Below, piece after piece: positions 22,509-28,362 of a stretch of DNA of 64,000 bases (the first letter of the stretch is position 1; each line of letters begins with the position of its first letter). The stretch comes from Thermaerobacter marianensis DSM 12885 (lineage in GTDB: Bacteria; Bacillota; Sulfobacillia; Thermaerobacterales; Thermaerobacteraceae): assembly GCF_000184705.1 (NCBI RefSeq), contig NC_014831.1, positions 496,001 through 560,000 on the forward strand. The letters are read 5' to 3'. A program made the position numbers and the translations under genes. The notes below the pieces were generated by a model. It was not told where the DNA came from. It searched no databases and worked only from the letters and a program-made list of their open reading frames with translations.

Positions 22509-22823
22509 CTTGCTCACCCCCTTCCCCCGTGGCCGCATCCCCTTCCTTTATAGGGGCGAGGGCTGAAGCCGGGAAACGGGCGGCGTCCGGGCGGTCAAAA
22601 AGGGGTGTTCGGCGGTCGTTGGGGCCCTTCGAGTGGTGCGTCCGCCGCACCGGGGCGGCCGGCGGGCATGGGGTGCCGGGCCGGCGCGTGACCGAATCCG
22701 TGCGGGGGATACGGCGAGGGACGCAGGAACCAGCCCCTTTTCATCCTAATTCGTATTGAAGGGGACGGTTTTCTGAGCAAGCCGTGGGCGGGGATGCCGC
22801 CACGATTTCAAGGGGGGTGTCCG

Positions 22824-24791
22824 ATGACGGAACCACAGGGTCGGCCCATTGACGCGCTGCTCAAGGAAGAGCGGCGGTTCGCGCCGCCGGAAGCCTTCCG
22901 GGCCCGCGCCCACGTGCGGGACGAGAGCGTGTACGAAGAGGCCGAGCGGGACCCCGAAGGGTACTGGGCCCGGTGGGCGGAGGAACTGGAATGGTTTGAG
23001 AAGTGGGACCGGGTCCTGGAGTGGAACCCGCCCCACGCGCGGTGGTTCGTCAACGGGAAGATCAACGCCAGCGTCAACTGCGTGGACCGCCACATCCGCG
23101 GCCCGCGGCGCAACAAGGCGGCCATCATCTGGGAGGGCGAGCCCGGCGACACCCGGACCCTGACCTACTTCGACCTGCACCGGGAGGTCAACCGGTTCGC
23201 CAATGTGCTGAAAAGCCTGGGTGTGAAGAAGGGCGACCGGGTGACCCTGTACCTGCCCATGATCCCGGAGCTGCCCATCGCCATGCTGGCCTGCGCCCGC
23301 ATCGGCGCGCCCCATTCGGTGGTCTTTGCCGGCTTCAGCCCCCAGGCCCTGGCCTCCCGCATGGAGGATGCCGGCTCGCGGTTCCTGGTCACCTGCGACG
23401 GGTTCTACCGCCGGGGCAAGGTGGTGCCGCTCAAGGCCCAGGCCGACGAGGCCATCCGGCTGCTGGCGGGCAAGCAGGACGTGGAGGCCGTGGTGGTGGT
23501 GCGCCGGACGGGGGATGAGGTCCCCTTCACCCCGGGCCGCGACCGCTGGTGGCACGAGCTGATGGAGCAGGCGGAGCGGCTGTGCCCGCCCGAGCCCATG
23601 GACGCCGAGGACATGCTGTTCATGATGTACACCTCGGGGACCACCGGCCGGCCCAAGGGCATCGTCCACACCACGGGCGGGTACCTGACGGGTGCCTATG
23701 CCACCACCAAGTGGGTCTTCGACCTGCAGGAAGACGACGTGTACTGGTGCATGGCGGACATCGGCTGGATCACCGGCCACTCCTACATCGTGTACGGGCC
23801 GCTGGCCAACGGCGCCACGGTGGTCATGTACGAGGGGGCGCCCGACTGGCCGGACAAGGACCGGCCCTGGGTCATCGTGGAGAAGTACGGCGTGACCGTG
23901 TTCTACACGGCGCCCACGGCCATCCGCGCCTTCGCCGCCGACGGCCCCGAGTACCCGCGGCGCCATGACCTGTCCAGCCTGCGGCTGCTGGGCTCGGTGG
24001 GCGAGCCCATCAACCCCGAGGCGTGGATGTGGTACCACGAGCACATCGGCGGCGGCCGTTGCCCCATCGTGGACACCTGGTGGCAGACGGAGACGGGGGC
24101 CATCATGATCACGCCGCTGCCGGGGGTGACGGTGACCAAGCCGGGCAGCGCCACCCGGCCTTTCCCGGGGATCAAGGCGGCGGTGCTGGACGACCAGGGC
24201 AACCCGGTGCCGCCCGGCCAGGGCGGCGGCTACCTGGCCATCCTGCGGCCGTGGCCGTCCATGCTGCGGGGCATCTGGGGCGACGAGCAGCGCTACGTCA
24301 ACACCTACTGGTCCAAGTGGGGCCGGGACGTCTACTACCCCGGCGACGGCGCCAAAATCGACGAGGACGGCTACTTCTGGGTGCTGGGCCGGGTGGACGA
24401 CGTGATGAACGTGGCCGGGCACCGGCTCAGCACCATGGAGATCGAGAGCGCCCTGGTCTCCCACCCCGCGGTGGCCGAGGCGGCGGTGATCGCCGCGCCC
24501 CACGAGCTCAAGGGCCAGGTGCCGGTGGGCTTCGTGATCCTGGAAGCGGGGCGCCAGGGCAGCCCCGAGCTGGAGGCGGAGCTGAAGGAGCACGTGGCGA
24601 AGGTGATCAGCCCCATCGCCCGCCCGGATCGGGTGCTGTTCGTCCCCGACCTGCCCAAGACCCGCAGCGGCAAGATCATGCGGCGCCTGCTGCGGGACAT
24701 CGTGGAGGGCCGGGAGCTGGGCGACACCACCACCTTGCGGGATCCCGACGTGCCCGAACAGCTGCGGCAGATGTACGCCGGCCGGAGCTGA
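22824..24791 (+). CDS. acs: Acetyl-CoA synthetase (acetate-CoA ligase)
   Basis: AMP-forming acyl-CoA ligase that converts acetate, ATP and CoA to acetyl-CoA. ATG at 22824 follows GGGGGGTG. All class motifs are present over 655 residues: [14 protein letters not shown] (P-loop-like), the acetate-pocket segment [45 protein letters not shown] and the C-terminal [14 protein letters not shown], whose last Lys is the site acetylated in other Acs enzymes. The length is typical. It is divergent from the carboxylate symporter operon, giving uptake and activation of acetate in one place. The short 5' spacer (22539-22823) shows no clear promoter hexamers. Confidence 0.96.
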
Positions 24792-24818
24792 CGCGGCAAC
24801 CGGGGGGGCGAAGGCAGC

Positions 24819-24850
24819 GGCGGCCGGAGCCCGGCGGGGCTCCGGCCGCC
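24819..24850 (+). terminator. GC-rich hairpin after acs
   Basis: A 13-bp stem GGCGGCCGGAGCC / GGCTCCGGCCGCC around a short loop, 28 bases after the acs stop, followed by CCATTT. The T-tract is weak, so termination is likely but not certain. Confidence 0.6.
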
Positions 24851-24898
24851 CCATTTCGGATCCGCCGCGCACTCTGGTGGAAACCGTCAAAAAAAGTT

Positions 24899-24916
24899 TA
24901 CAATCGAACTCGATTG
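24899..24916 (+). promoter_or_regulatory. Promoter -10 with overlapping perfect palindrome
   Basis: TACAAT (24899-24904) is a good -10. The palindrome CAATCGA-AC-TCGATTG (24901-24916, two 7-base arms, 2-base spacer) overlaps it and would cover the start point. This is the classical layout for a repressor or autoregulator operator. It lies 143 bases upstream of the mosaic gene at 25059 in a locally AT-rich patch. No strong -35 is seen. Confidence 0.6.
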
Positions 24917-24947
24917 GTTCAAGCGGTCCCGCCCGATTTCTCCACCG

Positions 24948-24967
24948 TTCGACAACTTTTTGTCGAA
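24948..24967 (+). promoter_or_regulatory. Second perfect inverted repeat in the same leader
   Basis: TTCGACAA-CTTT-TTGTCGAA, two 8-base arms around four bases, in the probable leader of the 25059 gene. It could be a second operator (both repeats contain TCGA) or an RNA hairpin in the leader. It lacks the GC-rich stem of an intrinsic terminator. Confidence 0.55.
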
Positions 24968-25058
24968 TGGGCGGCGGTGTCGGGCGGCCGGCATGGATTC
25001 CGTTCCGCACCGGCGGCCGCTGCCCGCCGCCGGTCGGCGCCCGTACGGAGGGGAAAGA

Positions 25059-28000
25059 ATGGAACTGGCGCCCAATGCGCCGGCTCCGGTGCCGCCGGAA
25101 GCATCCGATGCCGGGGCGCCGGGGGAGCATCCGGGGACGGCGCCCGGCGGTGCCGAGGGCATCCTTGGCCCGGCGCCCCGCGGGGGCCGGGCCGCCGCCG
25201 GTTCGTCCGGAACGGACGCCGGTGGGTCCGTGCCCGGCGAGGAGAGCCGGTCCGGCAGGCCACGCTCCGGTACCTCCCTGGCGGCCATCCCGCTGAGCTT
25301 GCTGGCGATCCCGCCCCGGGTCCGGCTGGCCCTGCAGCAGCGGGGCTATGACACCGTCGGCGATCTGGCCCGCCAGCCCGACACCCGGCTGCTGGCCACC
25401 CGGGGCATGGGGACCCGCGGCCTGCTGTCCCTGGTGACGGAACTGGCGCGGGTCATGGCCGATCCCGCCTACCAGGAGGATCTGCTGGCCCGGGCCGGGC
25501 GGTATGACCCCGGCCGCTTCCCCGACGCCGTCCGGAACCTGGCCATCGACGATCTGGGCTTGAGCCAGCGGGCCTACCGGGCCTTGCGCCGCGCCGGCGT
25601 GCAGACCGTGGGGCAGCTGCTGGAACTGGGGGAGGCGGGACTGCGGCGGTTGCGCGGCCTGGGACCGCGTTCGCTGGACGAGATCTGCCATCGCCTGGAC
25701 GCCCTGCAGTCGGGCCGGCCCCTGCCGCCGCCGGGCGTGGGCGCGGGCGATCCCCTGGCGCCGGAACTCATGGACGATCCGGCCCCCATCGCCGTGCTGT
25801 TGCTGCCGCGCCGGGTGGCCACCGCCTTGCAGCGGGCGGGCCTGCACACGGTGGGGGCGGTGGCCGGCTTCTCCCAGGGAGGGCTTCGCCGCCTGCGAGG
25901 GCTGGGGGAGAGCGGGGTGGCCGCGATCCTGGACGGCTTCCGCCGGTACCGCCAGGAGCGCAGCCAGCGGGACGCGGCCCCGCGGGACCTGGAGGACTGG
26001 CTGCGGGAACTGGTGGAGCCCCTGGCCGACCGGGAGCGGGAGGTCCTGGCCCTTCGTTACGGCCTCCTGGGCGCCGAGCCCCACGACCTGGCCGCCATCG
26101 CCGCCCGCTGGCAGACCACGCGGCAGTGGGTCAGCGTGGTCCAGGGCCGGGCCCTGCGCCGGGCGCGGGCCCGGGCCCGGCTCGACCGCTTTGCCCCCCT
26201 CGTGGCGGCGGTCCAGGCGGCGGCAACCCGTTGCGGAGCGGCGGGGCCTGCCGAGCTGGCCGAAGCGCTCCGCCAGGAGGGGACGGTGGCGGTCCCCGAG
26301 TCCGCCGACCAGGCGGTGCGGCTGGTCGGCCTGCTGGTCCAGGTGACGCCGGGGCTGCGCCGGGTGGCGGGATCCACCTGGGCGACCCTGGAGGTCGCCC
26401 AGCGCTTGCCCGAGGCGGCGCGGCGACTGGAGGCGTACCTGGCCGAGACGGGGCGGCCGGCCAGCCTGGCCGAGCTGGCCGGGTACCTGGCGGAGCACAT
26501 GCCCGACGCTCCGGCCAGCCCCGAGGCCATGGCCCGGGCGGTGCTGGCCACCCAGGGGGCCTTTGGCCGCTTCCCCGGCGGGCTGTACGGCCTGGCCAGC
26601 TGGCGGGTGGGGCGGCGGGTCCGGGCCCGGGATTACGTCTACCAGGCGCTGGAGCGGCACGGCCGGCCGCTCCACTACGCGGAGCTCACGCGGCTGGTCA
26701 ACCAGCTGCTCCCCGAAGGGCGCAAGATGCCGCCCACCCACGTGCTGACCATCCTCTCCTCGGGGGAGCCGTTCCGCCGGTTCGACCGCGGGATCTACGG
26801 CCTCACCCACTGGGAGCGGGAACCCGAGCGCAACCTGGCCGGCCTCTGCCGGGACGCCCTGGCGGAACGGGGCGAGCCCGCCACCCTGAACCAGGTGGTG
26901 GAGGCGGTTCAGCAGCAGCGCCGCTACCCCCGGCGCACCGTGGCCCGGGCCCTCAACGAAGACCCGGCCGTGCTGCGGTACGGGCGCGACCGGTTCGGTC
27001 TCAGCGCGTGGCTGGCCGCAGACCCGCAGGCGGCGGGTGCGGTCCGGGCGCCGGCCTACGGGCCCCGGCCGACCAACCTGGTGGCGGTGCGCGGGTTGCT
27101 GACCGAGCTGTTGGCGGGTCACGTGTACGACACAGCGCAGTTGACGGCGTATCTGGGACGCTGGCGCCAGCGGTCCCAGGCGCGCCAGATCATCGCGTAC
27201 CTCCACGCCGTGGGCTGGCTGACCGGGATCGATGACGCCTGGGCGGCCACCCCCCTGAACGAAGCCTGGGTGCGGGCGGGATCCGAGCCCGCCCAGCTGG
27301 CGGCCCTGGCCCTGGCCGATCCCGCCTTCGCCCATGCGCTGGTGCTGCACGAAGCCTTCCGGCGCCTGGATGCCGCGGACGGCCCGGACGGGACCGGGGC
27401 CGGAGAGGGCCCTGATGCCGCCGGGGCCGGCGACGGGCCCTCCGCCCGGACGGCCGCGGGCGCGGTGCCCGGCGCTTTCACGCCCGCCCAGGCGGCCCGC
27501 TGGCTGGCCCAGCGGATCCGGCGGGCGGCCGACGCCCGCGGCGTGGAGCCCGGGCCCGGCTTCCGCAGCCTCTTGCGCCGGCAGTGGCTGGTGACCGCCT
27601 GGTTCGACCCCTGGGTGGCGCTGCTGGCGGACGGCCGCCACAGCCCCGGGCCCGGGGGAGAAGGCGCCGCGGCGGCACCCGACGGGGACGAACCGGCCGC
27701 CGTAGCGGGGACGGCCCGGTCCCGAACGGGCACATCGCGGGCGGTCCTGTGGGACCACGCGGCCCGGCGGCTGTGGCCCGCCCGGCCGGTGCACCTCCCG
27801 GCCGCGTGGCTGCAGACGCCGGCCACCGCCTGGGCGCTGCTGGCCGACGCCGTGGCCGCCCGGCAGGGCGGGGCGGCGGTGGACCTCGAAGCCCTGGCCG
27901 AATGGTGCCGGGAGCAGGGCGTGGCGGCGAACCCGGCCCAGGTGGAGGCGGAGCTCTTCGCCCTGGGCCTCTGGCCGGTGCAGGAGGGACCCCGCCTGCG

Positions 28001-28250
28001 CCTCTACATGCCCTACCGGCTGGTGGTGCCGCCGGAGGGGCTGCGGCTGCCCGGGCTGCCGGCCGAGGGTGCCCTCCTGGACGCGGCCGCCGAGGTCCTG
28101 CGCCAGGCCGGGGTGCTGACGGGCCTTCCCGCCGGCTGGCCGGCGCCGCCTGCGGCCGAGGTCTACGGCGTGCCGCCCCTGGGTGCGGGCGGGCCGGCGG
28201 AAGCGGCGGCCCACGGCGAGGCCGGCGGGCTGCGTGCCGGTGACCGCTGA
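25059..28250 (+). CDS. Mosaic of RNA polymerase-like DNA-binding domains
   Basis: 1063 residues; ATG at 25059 follows GGAGGGG by six bases. Residues 1-75 are disordered. Three helix-hairpin-helix units resembling the alpha-subunit C-terminal domain follow, at about 80-130, 162-214 and 244-297 (for example YRALRRAGVQTVGQLLEL...LRGLGPRSLDEI). Next, at 311-374, is a sigma region 4-like helix-turn-helix (LADREREVLALRYGLLG, then RQWVSVVQGRALRRAR). Three tandem winged-helix units with the HARE/RNA polymerase delta ending follow at about 451-517, 523-586 and 591-651 (GLYGLASW, GIYGLTHW, RFGLSAW). The last 400 residues are unrecognised, with an Ala/Gly insert near 780-820. It has no catalytic motif, signal peptide or membrane segment. 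A transcription factor or polymerase-associated DNA-binding role is inferred. It stands alone, with terminator-like structure before it and a sugar isomerase after it. Confidence 0.85.
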   Translation: MELAPNAPAPVPPEASDAGAPGEHPGTAPGGAEGILGPAPRGGRAAAGSSGTDAGGSVPGEESRSGRPRSGTSLAAIPLSLLAIPPRVRLALQQRGYDTVGDLARQPDTRLLATRGMGTRGLLSLVTELARVMADPAYQEDLLARAGRYDPGRFPDAVRNLAIDDLGLSQRAYRALRRAGVQTVGQLLELGEAGLRRLRGLGPRSLDEICHRLDALQSGRPLPPPGVGAGDPLAPELMDDPAPIAVLLLPRRVATALQRAGLHTVGAVAGFSQGGLRRLRGLGESGVAAILDGFRRYRQERSQRDAAPRDLEDWLRELVEPLADREREVLALRYGLLGAEPHDLAAIAARWQTTRQWVSVVQGRALRRARARARLDRFAPLVAAVQAAATRCGAAGPAELAEALRQEGTVAVPESADQAVRLVGLLVQVTPGLRRVAGSTWATLEVAQRLPEAARRLEAYLAETGRPASLAELAGYLAEHMPDAPASPEAMARAVLATQGAFGRFPGGLYGLASWRVGRRVRARDYVYQALERHGRPLHYAELTRLVNQLLPEGRKMPPTHVLTILSSGEPFRRFDRGIYGLTHWEREPERNLAGLCRDALAERGEPATLNQVVEAVQQQRRYPRRTVARALNEDPAVLRYGRDRFGLSAWLAADPQAAGAVRAPAYGPRPTNLVAVRGLLTELLAGHVYDTAQLTAYLGRWRQRSQARQIIAYLHAVGWLTGIDDAWAATPLNEAWVRAGSEPAQLAALALADPAFAHALVLHEAFRRLDAADGPDGTGAGEGPDAAGAGDGPSARTAAGAVPGAFTPAQAARWLAQRIRRAADARGVEPGPGFRSLLRRQWLVTAWFDPWVALLADGRHSPGPGGEGAAAAPDGDEPAAVAGTARSRTGTSRAVLWDHAARRLWPARPVHLPAAWLQTPATAWALLADAVAARQGGAAVDLEALAEWCREQGVAANPAQVEAELFALGLWPVQEGPRLRLYMPYRLVVPPEGLRLPGLPAEGALLDAAAEVLRQAGVLTGLPAGWPAPPAAEVYGVPPLGAGGPAEAAAHGEAGGLRAGDR

Positions 28251-28309
28251 CCCGGTCTGCCGGGGGCCGGTTCGGGGGAAGGGTGCCGGTGGCCGGGGCC
28301 GGCGAGAGG

Positions 28310-28322
28310 GGTGCATTGCACC
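28310..28322 (+). promoter_or_regulatory. Short perfect palindrome before the isomerase gene
   Basis: GGTGCA-T-TGCACC, 41 bases before the ATG at 28363. It may be an operator, but six-base arms can arise by chance in GC-rich DNA. Confidence 0.3.
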
Positions 28323-28362
28323 GACCAAGCGGGCTTTCGCCGATCAAGGAGGCCGACAGGCG

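Follow-up and report, generated by a model that had tools for sequence, protein, structure and literature searches.

The contact determinants of the alpha subunit C-terminal domain (alpha-CTD) of RNA polymerase (RNAP) and of sigma region 4 (sigma4) are, in E. coli numbering, R265, N268, G296, K298 and S299 and R584, E585 and R588, respectively. Helix-hairpin-helix (HhH) and winged-helix units can bind proteins too. Related modules are combined in other systems, namely in the sigma4+HARE defence proteins and in PglW of BREX type 2, in which an alpha-CTD-like domain is followed by three winged helices (PMC12839542). Here we describe a gene of Thermaerobacter marianensis DSM 12885 (25059..28250, plus strand) for a predicted multi-module DNA-binding protein, which probably regulates or marks promoter DNA. 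Its domains are known; the protein itself is uncharacterised, conserved and less singular than first thought.

The host genome is a single contig of 2,844,696 bases, and all positions given here refer to the window, that is the whole stretch of 64,000 nucleotides analysed (496001-560000 of the contig). The ORF at 25059-28250 on the plus strand encodes a product of 1063 aa, as had been stated in the earlier note, and a Shine–Dalgarno sequence at 25047-25053 (GGAGGGG), identical in 5/5 orthologues, supports the ATG at 25059. The GC content at the three codon positions is 0.83/0.59/0.92. The DNA is 74% GC and an antisense ORF of 1860 aa lies opposite the gene. A spurious ORF in 74% GC DNA was ruled out; the plus frame is regarded as real because orthologues, other relatives and codon-position divergence all back it, the third codon positions diverging most between the gene and its orthologue L060.

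After a variable stretch of low model confidence (aa 1-73), three HhH/alpha-CTD-like units occupy aa 74-131 (25278..25451), aa 158-216 (25530..25706) and aa 240-302 (25776..25964), all on the plus strand. A Pfam scan of the protein found RNA_pol_A_CTD (PF03118) in three stretches with E=5.9e-24, the best of them in unit 2, and in profile-profile comparisons the three units are mutually homologous (E 1e-11 to 3e-7, with unit 3 matching unit 2 at 1e-11), the more strongly so with deeper alignments. Unit 2 is the one nearest to a true alpha-CTD; it has a PDB profile match at 1.5e-9 and, in the AlphaFold model, superposes on the B. subtilis alpha-CTD (1z3e) with a Z of 11.3 and 1.2 A over 64 residues. 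The equivalents of R265 are R87, R171 and R252 in units 1, 2 and 3, and they are invariant across all three units in 5/5 orthologues; R87 is furthermore kept in every relative possessing unit 1. In unit 2, G296 corresponds to G202, K298 to R204 and S299 to S205; the R265, G296 and S299 equivalents are invariant in 12/12 family members and the K298 position is basic. The equivalent of N268 is kept in the two other orders in which relatives were found and is Arg in the Thermaerobacter lineage.

The HhH units are followed by a sigma-70 region 4-like helix-turn-helix (aa 305-378; 25971..26192, plus strand), which Pfam matched as Sigma70_r4 (PF04545) above the cut-off at aa 322-369 (E 6.3e-6) and which superposes on region 4 of sigmaA (7kug) with a Z of 11.5 in the AlphaFold model. 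Its recognition helix, TTRQWVSVVQ, is invariant in 5/5 orthologues; R584 is kept, its equivalent being invariant in 12/12 family members, and E585 and R588 are replaced by Gln and Ser, respectively. Among the relatives, the sigma4 of order f47 keeps all of the −35-reading residues checked (R584, E585 and R588), and that of order f91 has Ala at E585 and Gln at R588. Winged-helix-like segment 1 (aa 379-445; 26193..26393, plus strand) is helical in the model and collinear in all relatives, and is assigned with moderate confidence; its pLDDT is mostly 75-80 up to about residue 430 and then below 50, and it showed no sequence homology to winged helices 2-4 in profile-profile comparisons, also with deeper alignments. 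These three tandem HARE-type winged helices carry YGLxxW-type endings and lie, on the plus strand, at aa 446-518 (26394..26612; pLDDT up to 91), aa 519-588 (26613..26822) and aa 589-655 (26823..27023). They are mutually homologous (E 3e-9 to 1e-5 in profile-profile comparisons, stronger with deeper alignments), winged helices 2 and 4 matching winged helix 3 at 3e-9 and 7e-6. Winged helix 3 is the most conserved module of all, with 74% invariant columns, and is supported by a partial PF05066 match and by PDB winged helices such as 7viv (Z 9.2). In the Thermaerobacter sequence the HARE-HTH match at aa 528-547 stays under the Pfam cut-off (22.1 vs 25.9 bits); over the family, RNA_pol_A_CTD and Sigma70_r4 were matched in 12/12 members and HARE in 10/12 at E<=0.01, with a best value of 1.9e-10. 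An 11-row HARE alignment, in which row 11 is off by one residue (ACIR for ACLR) and which served for the contig, viral and PDB searches, gave no significant HARE/delta match by sequence in the PDB.

The last 400 residues, which had been left unassigned in the earlier note, contain a conserved helical segment at aa 665-740 (27051..27278, plus strand) and a winged-helix-like segment at aa 905-990 (27771..28028, plus strand), both of low confidence as structured segments. The former has three helices in the model, with a pLDDT below 50, and is possibly a fifth winged helix; aa 655-740 have 56% invariant columns. The latter might be a sixth, judged from the model and from weak matches to winged helices in the PDB; aa 921-983 are modelled as helix-helix-helix-strand-strand with a pLDDT mostly of 50-73. 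The linkers at 771-805 and 861-895 are variable, with 9% and 3% invariant columns. The AlphaFold model was built from three sequences and its pLDDT is mostly 60-90 over residues 75-590 and poor beyond about 640. No enzyme domain was detected in four domain libraries, the C-terminal part being modelled with low confidence; the same scans gave no match to a nuclease family, PD-(D/E)XK or other, such as a HARE-fused restriction endonuclease would carry, and no kinase, nuclease, ATPase or methylase was found in the protein. Neither of the two models had a Foldseek match at E<=0.001, and the fold claims therefore rest on VIA-align Z scores, chiefly for residues 155-218 and 307-386. The module list proposed earlier holds for the three HhH units, for the single sigma4 unit and for the three HARE-type winged helices, and had missed the extra segment at 379-445. 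The absence of a visible catalytic domain was likewise borne out in the four libraries. Neither repeats in unrelated folds nor a C-terminal nuclease, the two outcomes that had been named as speaking against the proposal, was found, in the C-terminal part at low model confidence.

Full-length orthologues with 59-73% identity are present in 5/5 genomes of the family, which represent two genera, and are single-copy in all five; none was found in the other sampled genomes of the same order or class. One of them (L060) is from the Bacillota bacterium isolate ZC4RG37. At the window locus, as at the two others that were read completely (L054 and L055), the gene lies between acs and the gene for a bacterial phosphoglucose/phosphomannose isomerase (pgi/pmi), and its neighbours are metabolic. 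In a sample of the phylum, relatives that are collinear over their full length turned up in two further families (f47 and f91), and these are single-copy in 5/5 genomes of each of their two Bacillota orders. They are 536-604 aa long and have two to four HhH units, sigma4 and winged-helix/HARE units without the C-terminal extension; four alpha-CTD matches were obtained in an f47 protein (L039) and two in the f91 proteins tested. Another f47 member (L061) is from the Bacillota bacterium isolate AS05jafATM_29. In the earlier note the layout of three, one and three units was not known from a characterised system; as shorter collinear versions recur in two other Bacillota orders, it is the C-terminal extension that is the peculiar part. 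More distant cousins combine sigma4 with HARE and were found upstream of BrxP/SspB/SspC-like genes (L056) and, on an Abditibacteriota plasmid, beside an Eco57I/DrmMI-like (IIG-like) methylase gene (L033). The genome contigs gave no match when searched with the single protein and four loci when searched with the 11-row HARE alignment, two of which (L062 and L063) encode HARE-fusion proteins of another kind. The same alignment matched nothing in the viral contigs. No paper on this architecture was found in a literature search from which the original 2012 HARE-HTH survey was absent.

The gene has a 270-bp leader. Within it, the block GTGGAAACCGTCAAAAAAAGTTTACAAT (24877..24904, plus strand), of which GAAA, CGTCAA and TTTACAAT are conserved in five genomes, looks promoter-like, and a scan of the leader with the sigma-70 consensus found no site. 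An inverted repeat, CAATCGA-AC-TCGATTG (24901..24916), is the sole match in the genome at up to one mismatch; it has a shorter form in three congeners and is lost in L060. Downstream of the conserved block lies a palindrome, TTCGACA-ACTTTT-TGTCGAA (24948..24967), which consists of two inverted perfect Spo0A core boxes with an N6 spacer, the core Spo0A box being TGTCGAA (PMC3485338). The palindrome is present in 5/5 genomes of the family with its 14 arm positions identical and its spacer and flanks varying. Such a site occurs just once in the host genome and once in each of three others, the remaining genome (G002) having a second copy, and 0.008 occurrences per genome would be expected by chance from base composition, or 0.01 from dinucleotide shuffles of the window. 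It is separated from TTTACAAT by 51 bp in all but one of the five genomes, the exception (42) being shorter by roughly a turn of the helix. Its distances to the ATG are spread between 111 and 156. This near-constant spacing to TTTACAAT combined with a variable distance to the ATG points to a transcriptional rather than a translational use, and fits a putative DNA operator phased to a promoter. Spo0A boxes are usually arranged in tandem and the inverted arrangement is atypical. The sole genomic match to tandem direct 0A boxes is apparently inside a uridine kinase-like gene and was taken as chance, and a search of 3.3 kb surrounding spo0A gave no perfect 0A box.

Two marks of membership in a Spo0A regulon were looked for, perfect core 0A boxes upstream of the gene and an encoded Spo0A, and both were found; the genome encodes a Spo0A with the helix TTPSRVERAIRHAIEV / SRVERAIRH. 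T. marianensis strain 7p75a has been described as spore-forming, with terminal spores rarely detectable (PMC3035304). Thermaerobacter is a deep-sea thermophile. We suggest that the gene is probably controlled by Spo0A, or by another factor that recognises this site. The palindrome could alternatively form an RNA hairpin, with which the inward extension of its stem in L005 is compatible, or it could be an autoregulatory site of the protein itself.

Our preferred explanation, to which we assign a probability of about 0.5, is that the protein is non-catalytic, binds DNA multivalently and reads promoters, as a regulator or an architectural protein whose gene is under Spo0A-type control. The findings computed in this study are DNA-binding-type folds, conserved contact residues, vertical inheritance, synteny, an operator-like palindrome and a Spo0A gene. 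Several other explanations have to be weighed against it. RNAP subunits are the source of the modules, and delta has the same HARE type, which would be consistent with an accessory factor bound to RNAP. Such a factor would contact core or holoenzyme (beta-flap, sigma, alpha) through its sigma4-like and HhH/HARE units and would influence initiation or recycling as delta, AsiA or RbpA do. No HARE match over the cut-off was obtained genome-wide with HMMER, so that no separate delta was seen. However, helix 416-429 of the model takes the position that the beta-flap-tip helix has in sigma4-flap chimeras, the alignments to 7kug, 8d5v and 6ido reaching 430-434 in a stretch with a pLDDT mostly of 75-80, and the flap groove may thus be filled in cis; we place little weight on this hint because the model provides pLDDT without an inter-domain error estimate. 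The protein also has no delta-like acidic tail, the net charge of its last 68 residues being −3. We consider an RNAP-bound factor to be unlikely. A protein with a general role in the nucleoid or in chromosome architecture and with no specificity for promoters, perhaps one that protects DNA in spores or at high temperature, would agree with up to ten candidate DNA-binding units, a composition of 122 Arg and 1 Lys, a pI of about 11.4, a thermophilic host and the putative Spo0A-type operator. Nevertheless, the net charge is just +11 over 1063 residues, and the invariance of recognition helices such as that of sigma4 suggests specific contacts, which makes this explanation rather improbable.

A sensor of invading DNA or a defence regulator, corresponding to the HhH and winged-helix half of PglW or to the proteins with sigma4 and HARE found in BREX/Ssp and type IIG-like loci, appears slightly more improbable still. 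This lead is not foolish, since distant cousins sit in defence islands, next to the BrxP/SspB/SspC-like and DrmMI/IIG-like methylase genes mentioned above; in addition, profiles of PglW and MzaA match the modules, and the described domain order of PglW resembles the one seen here. On the other hand, the protein shows none of the catalytic domains searched for, and its gene, unlike mobile defence genes, has metabolic neighbours and keeps its synteny and its single copy within the family. No phage record was matched, and among plasmid records there was a single match, confined to the HARE part. A defence gene at this locus was rejected on synteny and neighbours, and the defence or competence role raised in the earlier note finds no support here, whereas the other class proposed there, a polymerase-associated regulator or nucleoid protein, is upheld as the most plausible one. 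Most likely the protein is not a subunit of the sigma, alpha or delta kind, and at this locus its gene is not a defence gene.

According to the promoter-reading explanation, for which we infer DNA binding, promoter targeting, the direction of regulation and Spo0A control, the alpha-CTD-like units would hold A+T-rich, UP-element-like DNA by its minor groove, and the sigma4-like and winged-helix units would read adjacent major grooves. The protein would thereby regulate promoters, most likely by competing with or repressing RNAP, or play an architectural part at them, and Spo0A-type control would time this action to the entry into stationary phase or sporulation. Without sigma regions 2 and 3 and the alpha-NTD it should not assemble into core as sigma and alpha do. 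As the sigma4 of f47 keeps R584, E585 and R588, the ancestral protein could plausibly have read promoter DNA. With E585, R588 and N268 replaced in Thermaerobacter, canonical −35/UP recognition is unlikely without a change in specificity, and in our reading the sequence specificity may have been rewritten in this lineage. A bolder and speculative version, which we think unlikely, is that one polypeptide reproduces the surface with which the RNAP holoenzyme reads the upstream part of promoters (UP element plus −35), cannot join core and serves as a dedicated promoter competitor or marker during the sporulation switch, the same module set being used separately in BREX/Ssp-type defence. Should promoter binding hold true, the protein would be a regulator assembled from pieces of polymerase, of which we know no characterised example, and it would provide a testable link from Spo0A to a new regulator among deep-branching spore-formers. 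That its relatives comprise both core chromosomal genes and defence-island genes also bears on the origin of the DNA-reading halves of PglW and similar proteins.

Compared with known systems, the protein resembles the RNAP alpha-CTD (PF03118) in its HhH fold and in the R265, G296 and S299 equivalents of unit 2, and differs from alpha in having three CTD-like copies per chain, in the loss of N268 in the Thermaerobacter lineage and in the absence of an alpha-NTD; RpoA models matched the C-terminal part only, far under the cut-off, and Pfam the CTD family only. With sigma-70 region 4 (PF04545) it shares the fold and the R584 equivalent, and f47 relatives have a canonical recognition helix; unlike sigma-70 factors it has no region 3 and no region 2 for core binding and −10 recognition, Pfam and NCBIfam scans giving Sigma70_r4 only, and E585 and R588 are replaced. 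The three tandem units with YGLxxW-type endings are like HARE-HTH (PF05066) and the N-terminal domain of delta; however, delta (RpoE) is small, with an N-terminal HARE and an acidic disordered tail, and here the HARE units are central in a protein of 1063 aa. PglW of BREX type 2 likewise has an alpha-CTD-like part before its winged helices, but neither the NERD nuclease and Ser/Thr kinase that precede this part in PglW nor an inactive STAND domain was found in the protein, the locus is not a BREX locus and the PglW model scored 34.7 bits vs a cut-off of 990. The sigma4 region is shared with MzaA, whose full-length model reached 25.3 bits vs a cut-off of 800 in the sigma4 part only, and with the sigma4+HARE defence proteins L033 and L056, in which HARE winged helices follow sigma4; these two, in contrast, have defence neighbours and no PF03118 matches. 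The proteins of the two other Bacillota orders (L038-L043, L045-L048 and L061) do not have the 400-residue C-terminal extension, and their genes have different neighbours (a histidine kinase gene tail-to-tail; a DUF4855 gene downstream), but they share with the Thermaerobacter protein the HhH repeats, sigma4 and winged-helix/HARE units as well as the single copy per genome.

The heptamer TGTCGAA, the core of the Spo0A box, occurs eight times in the whole window, against 1.9 copies expected from dinucleotide shuffles, and two of the eight form the arms of the palindrome upstream of the studied gene (24948-24967). In a congener, a second inverted Spo0A-box palindrome lies at G002:C1:981715-981735. 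The leader also contains an inverted repeat, CAATCGA-AC-TCGATTG (24901-24916), which overlaps the conserved TTTACAAT block and is itself the sole match in the genome when up to one mismatch is allowed; at the orthologue locus L060 this repeat is degenerate. On the minus strand, an 1860-aa ORF (22746-28328) covers both the studied gene and the neighbouring acs; it is a by-product of the 74% GC content and does not count as evidence for a gene.

The neighbourhoods of the shorter collinear relatives in the Bacillota groups f47 and f91 were taken from loci L040, L042 and L047 together with L039, L041, L038, L046 and L048. In order f91, a histidine kinase gene lies tail-to-tail with that of the relative; in f47 the gene 3′ of the relative's encodes a large, probably secreted protein, in which DUF4855 was seen at L039.

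At G063:C14:127784-128257, in another Bacillota genome, a 921-aa open frame matches the family profile within the profile's alpha-CTD-like part, over two units. In three unnamed Bacillota proteins (L049, L050 and L051), which are distinct from the multi-module family studied here, a long coiled coil comes after HARE-like winged helices. The sigma4+HARE protein of the Abditibacteriota plasmid pIAD-21 (AP024153.1; L033:26-1732), directly upstream of an Eco57I/DrmMI-like methylase gene, bears the label RpoD, an RNA polymerase sigma factor, in its annotation; no match to sigma region 2 was found in it, and the label looks like a misannotation. Another sigma4+HARE protein, of 1051 aa (L056:1930-5082), is followed by BrxP-, SspB- and SspC-like genes (L056:5362-10000), which represent phosphorothioate/BREX-type defence.
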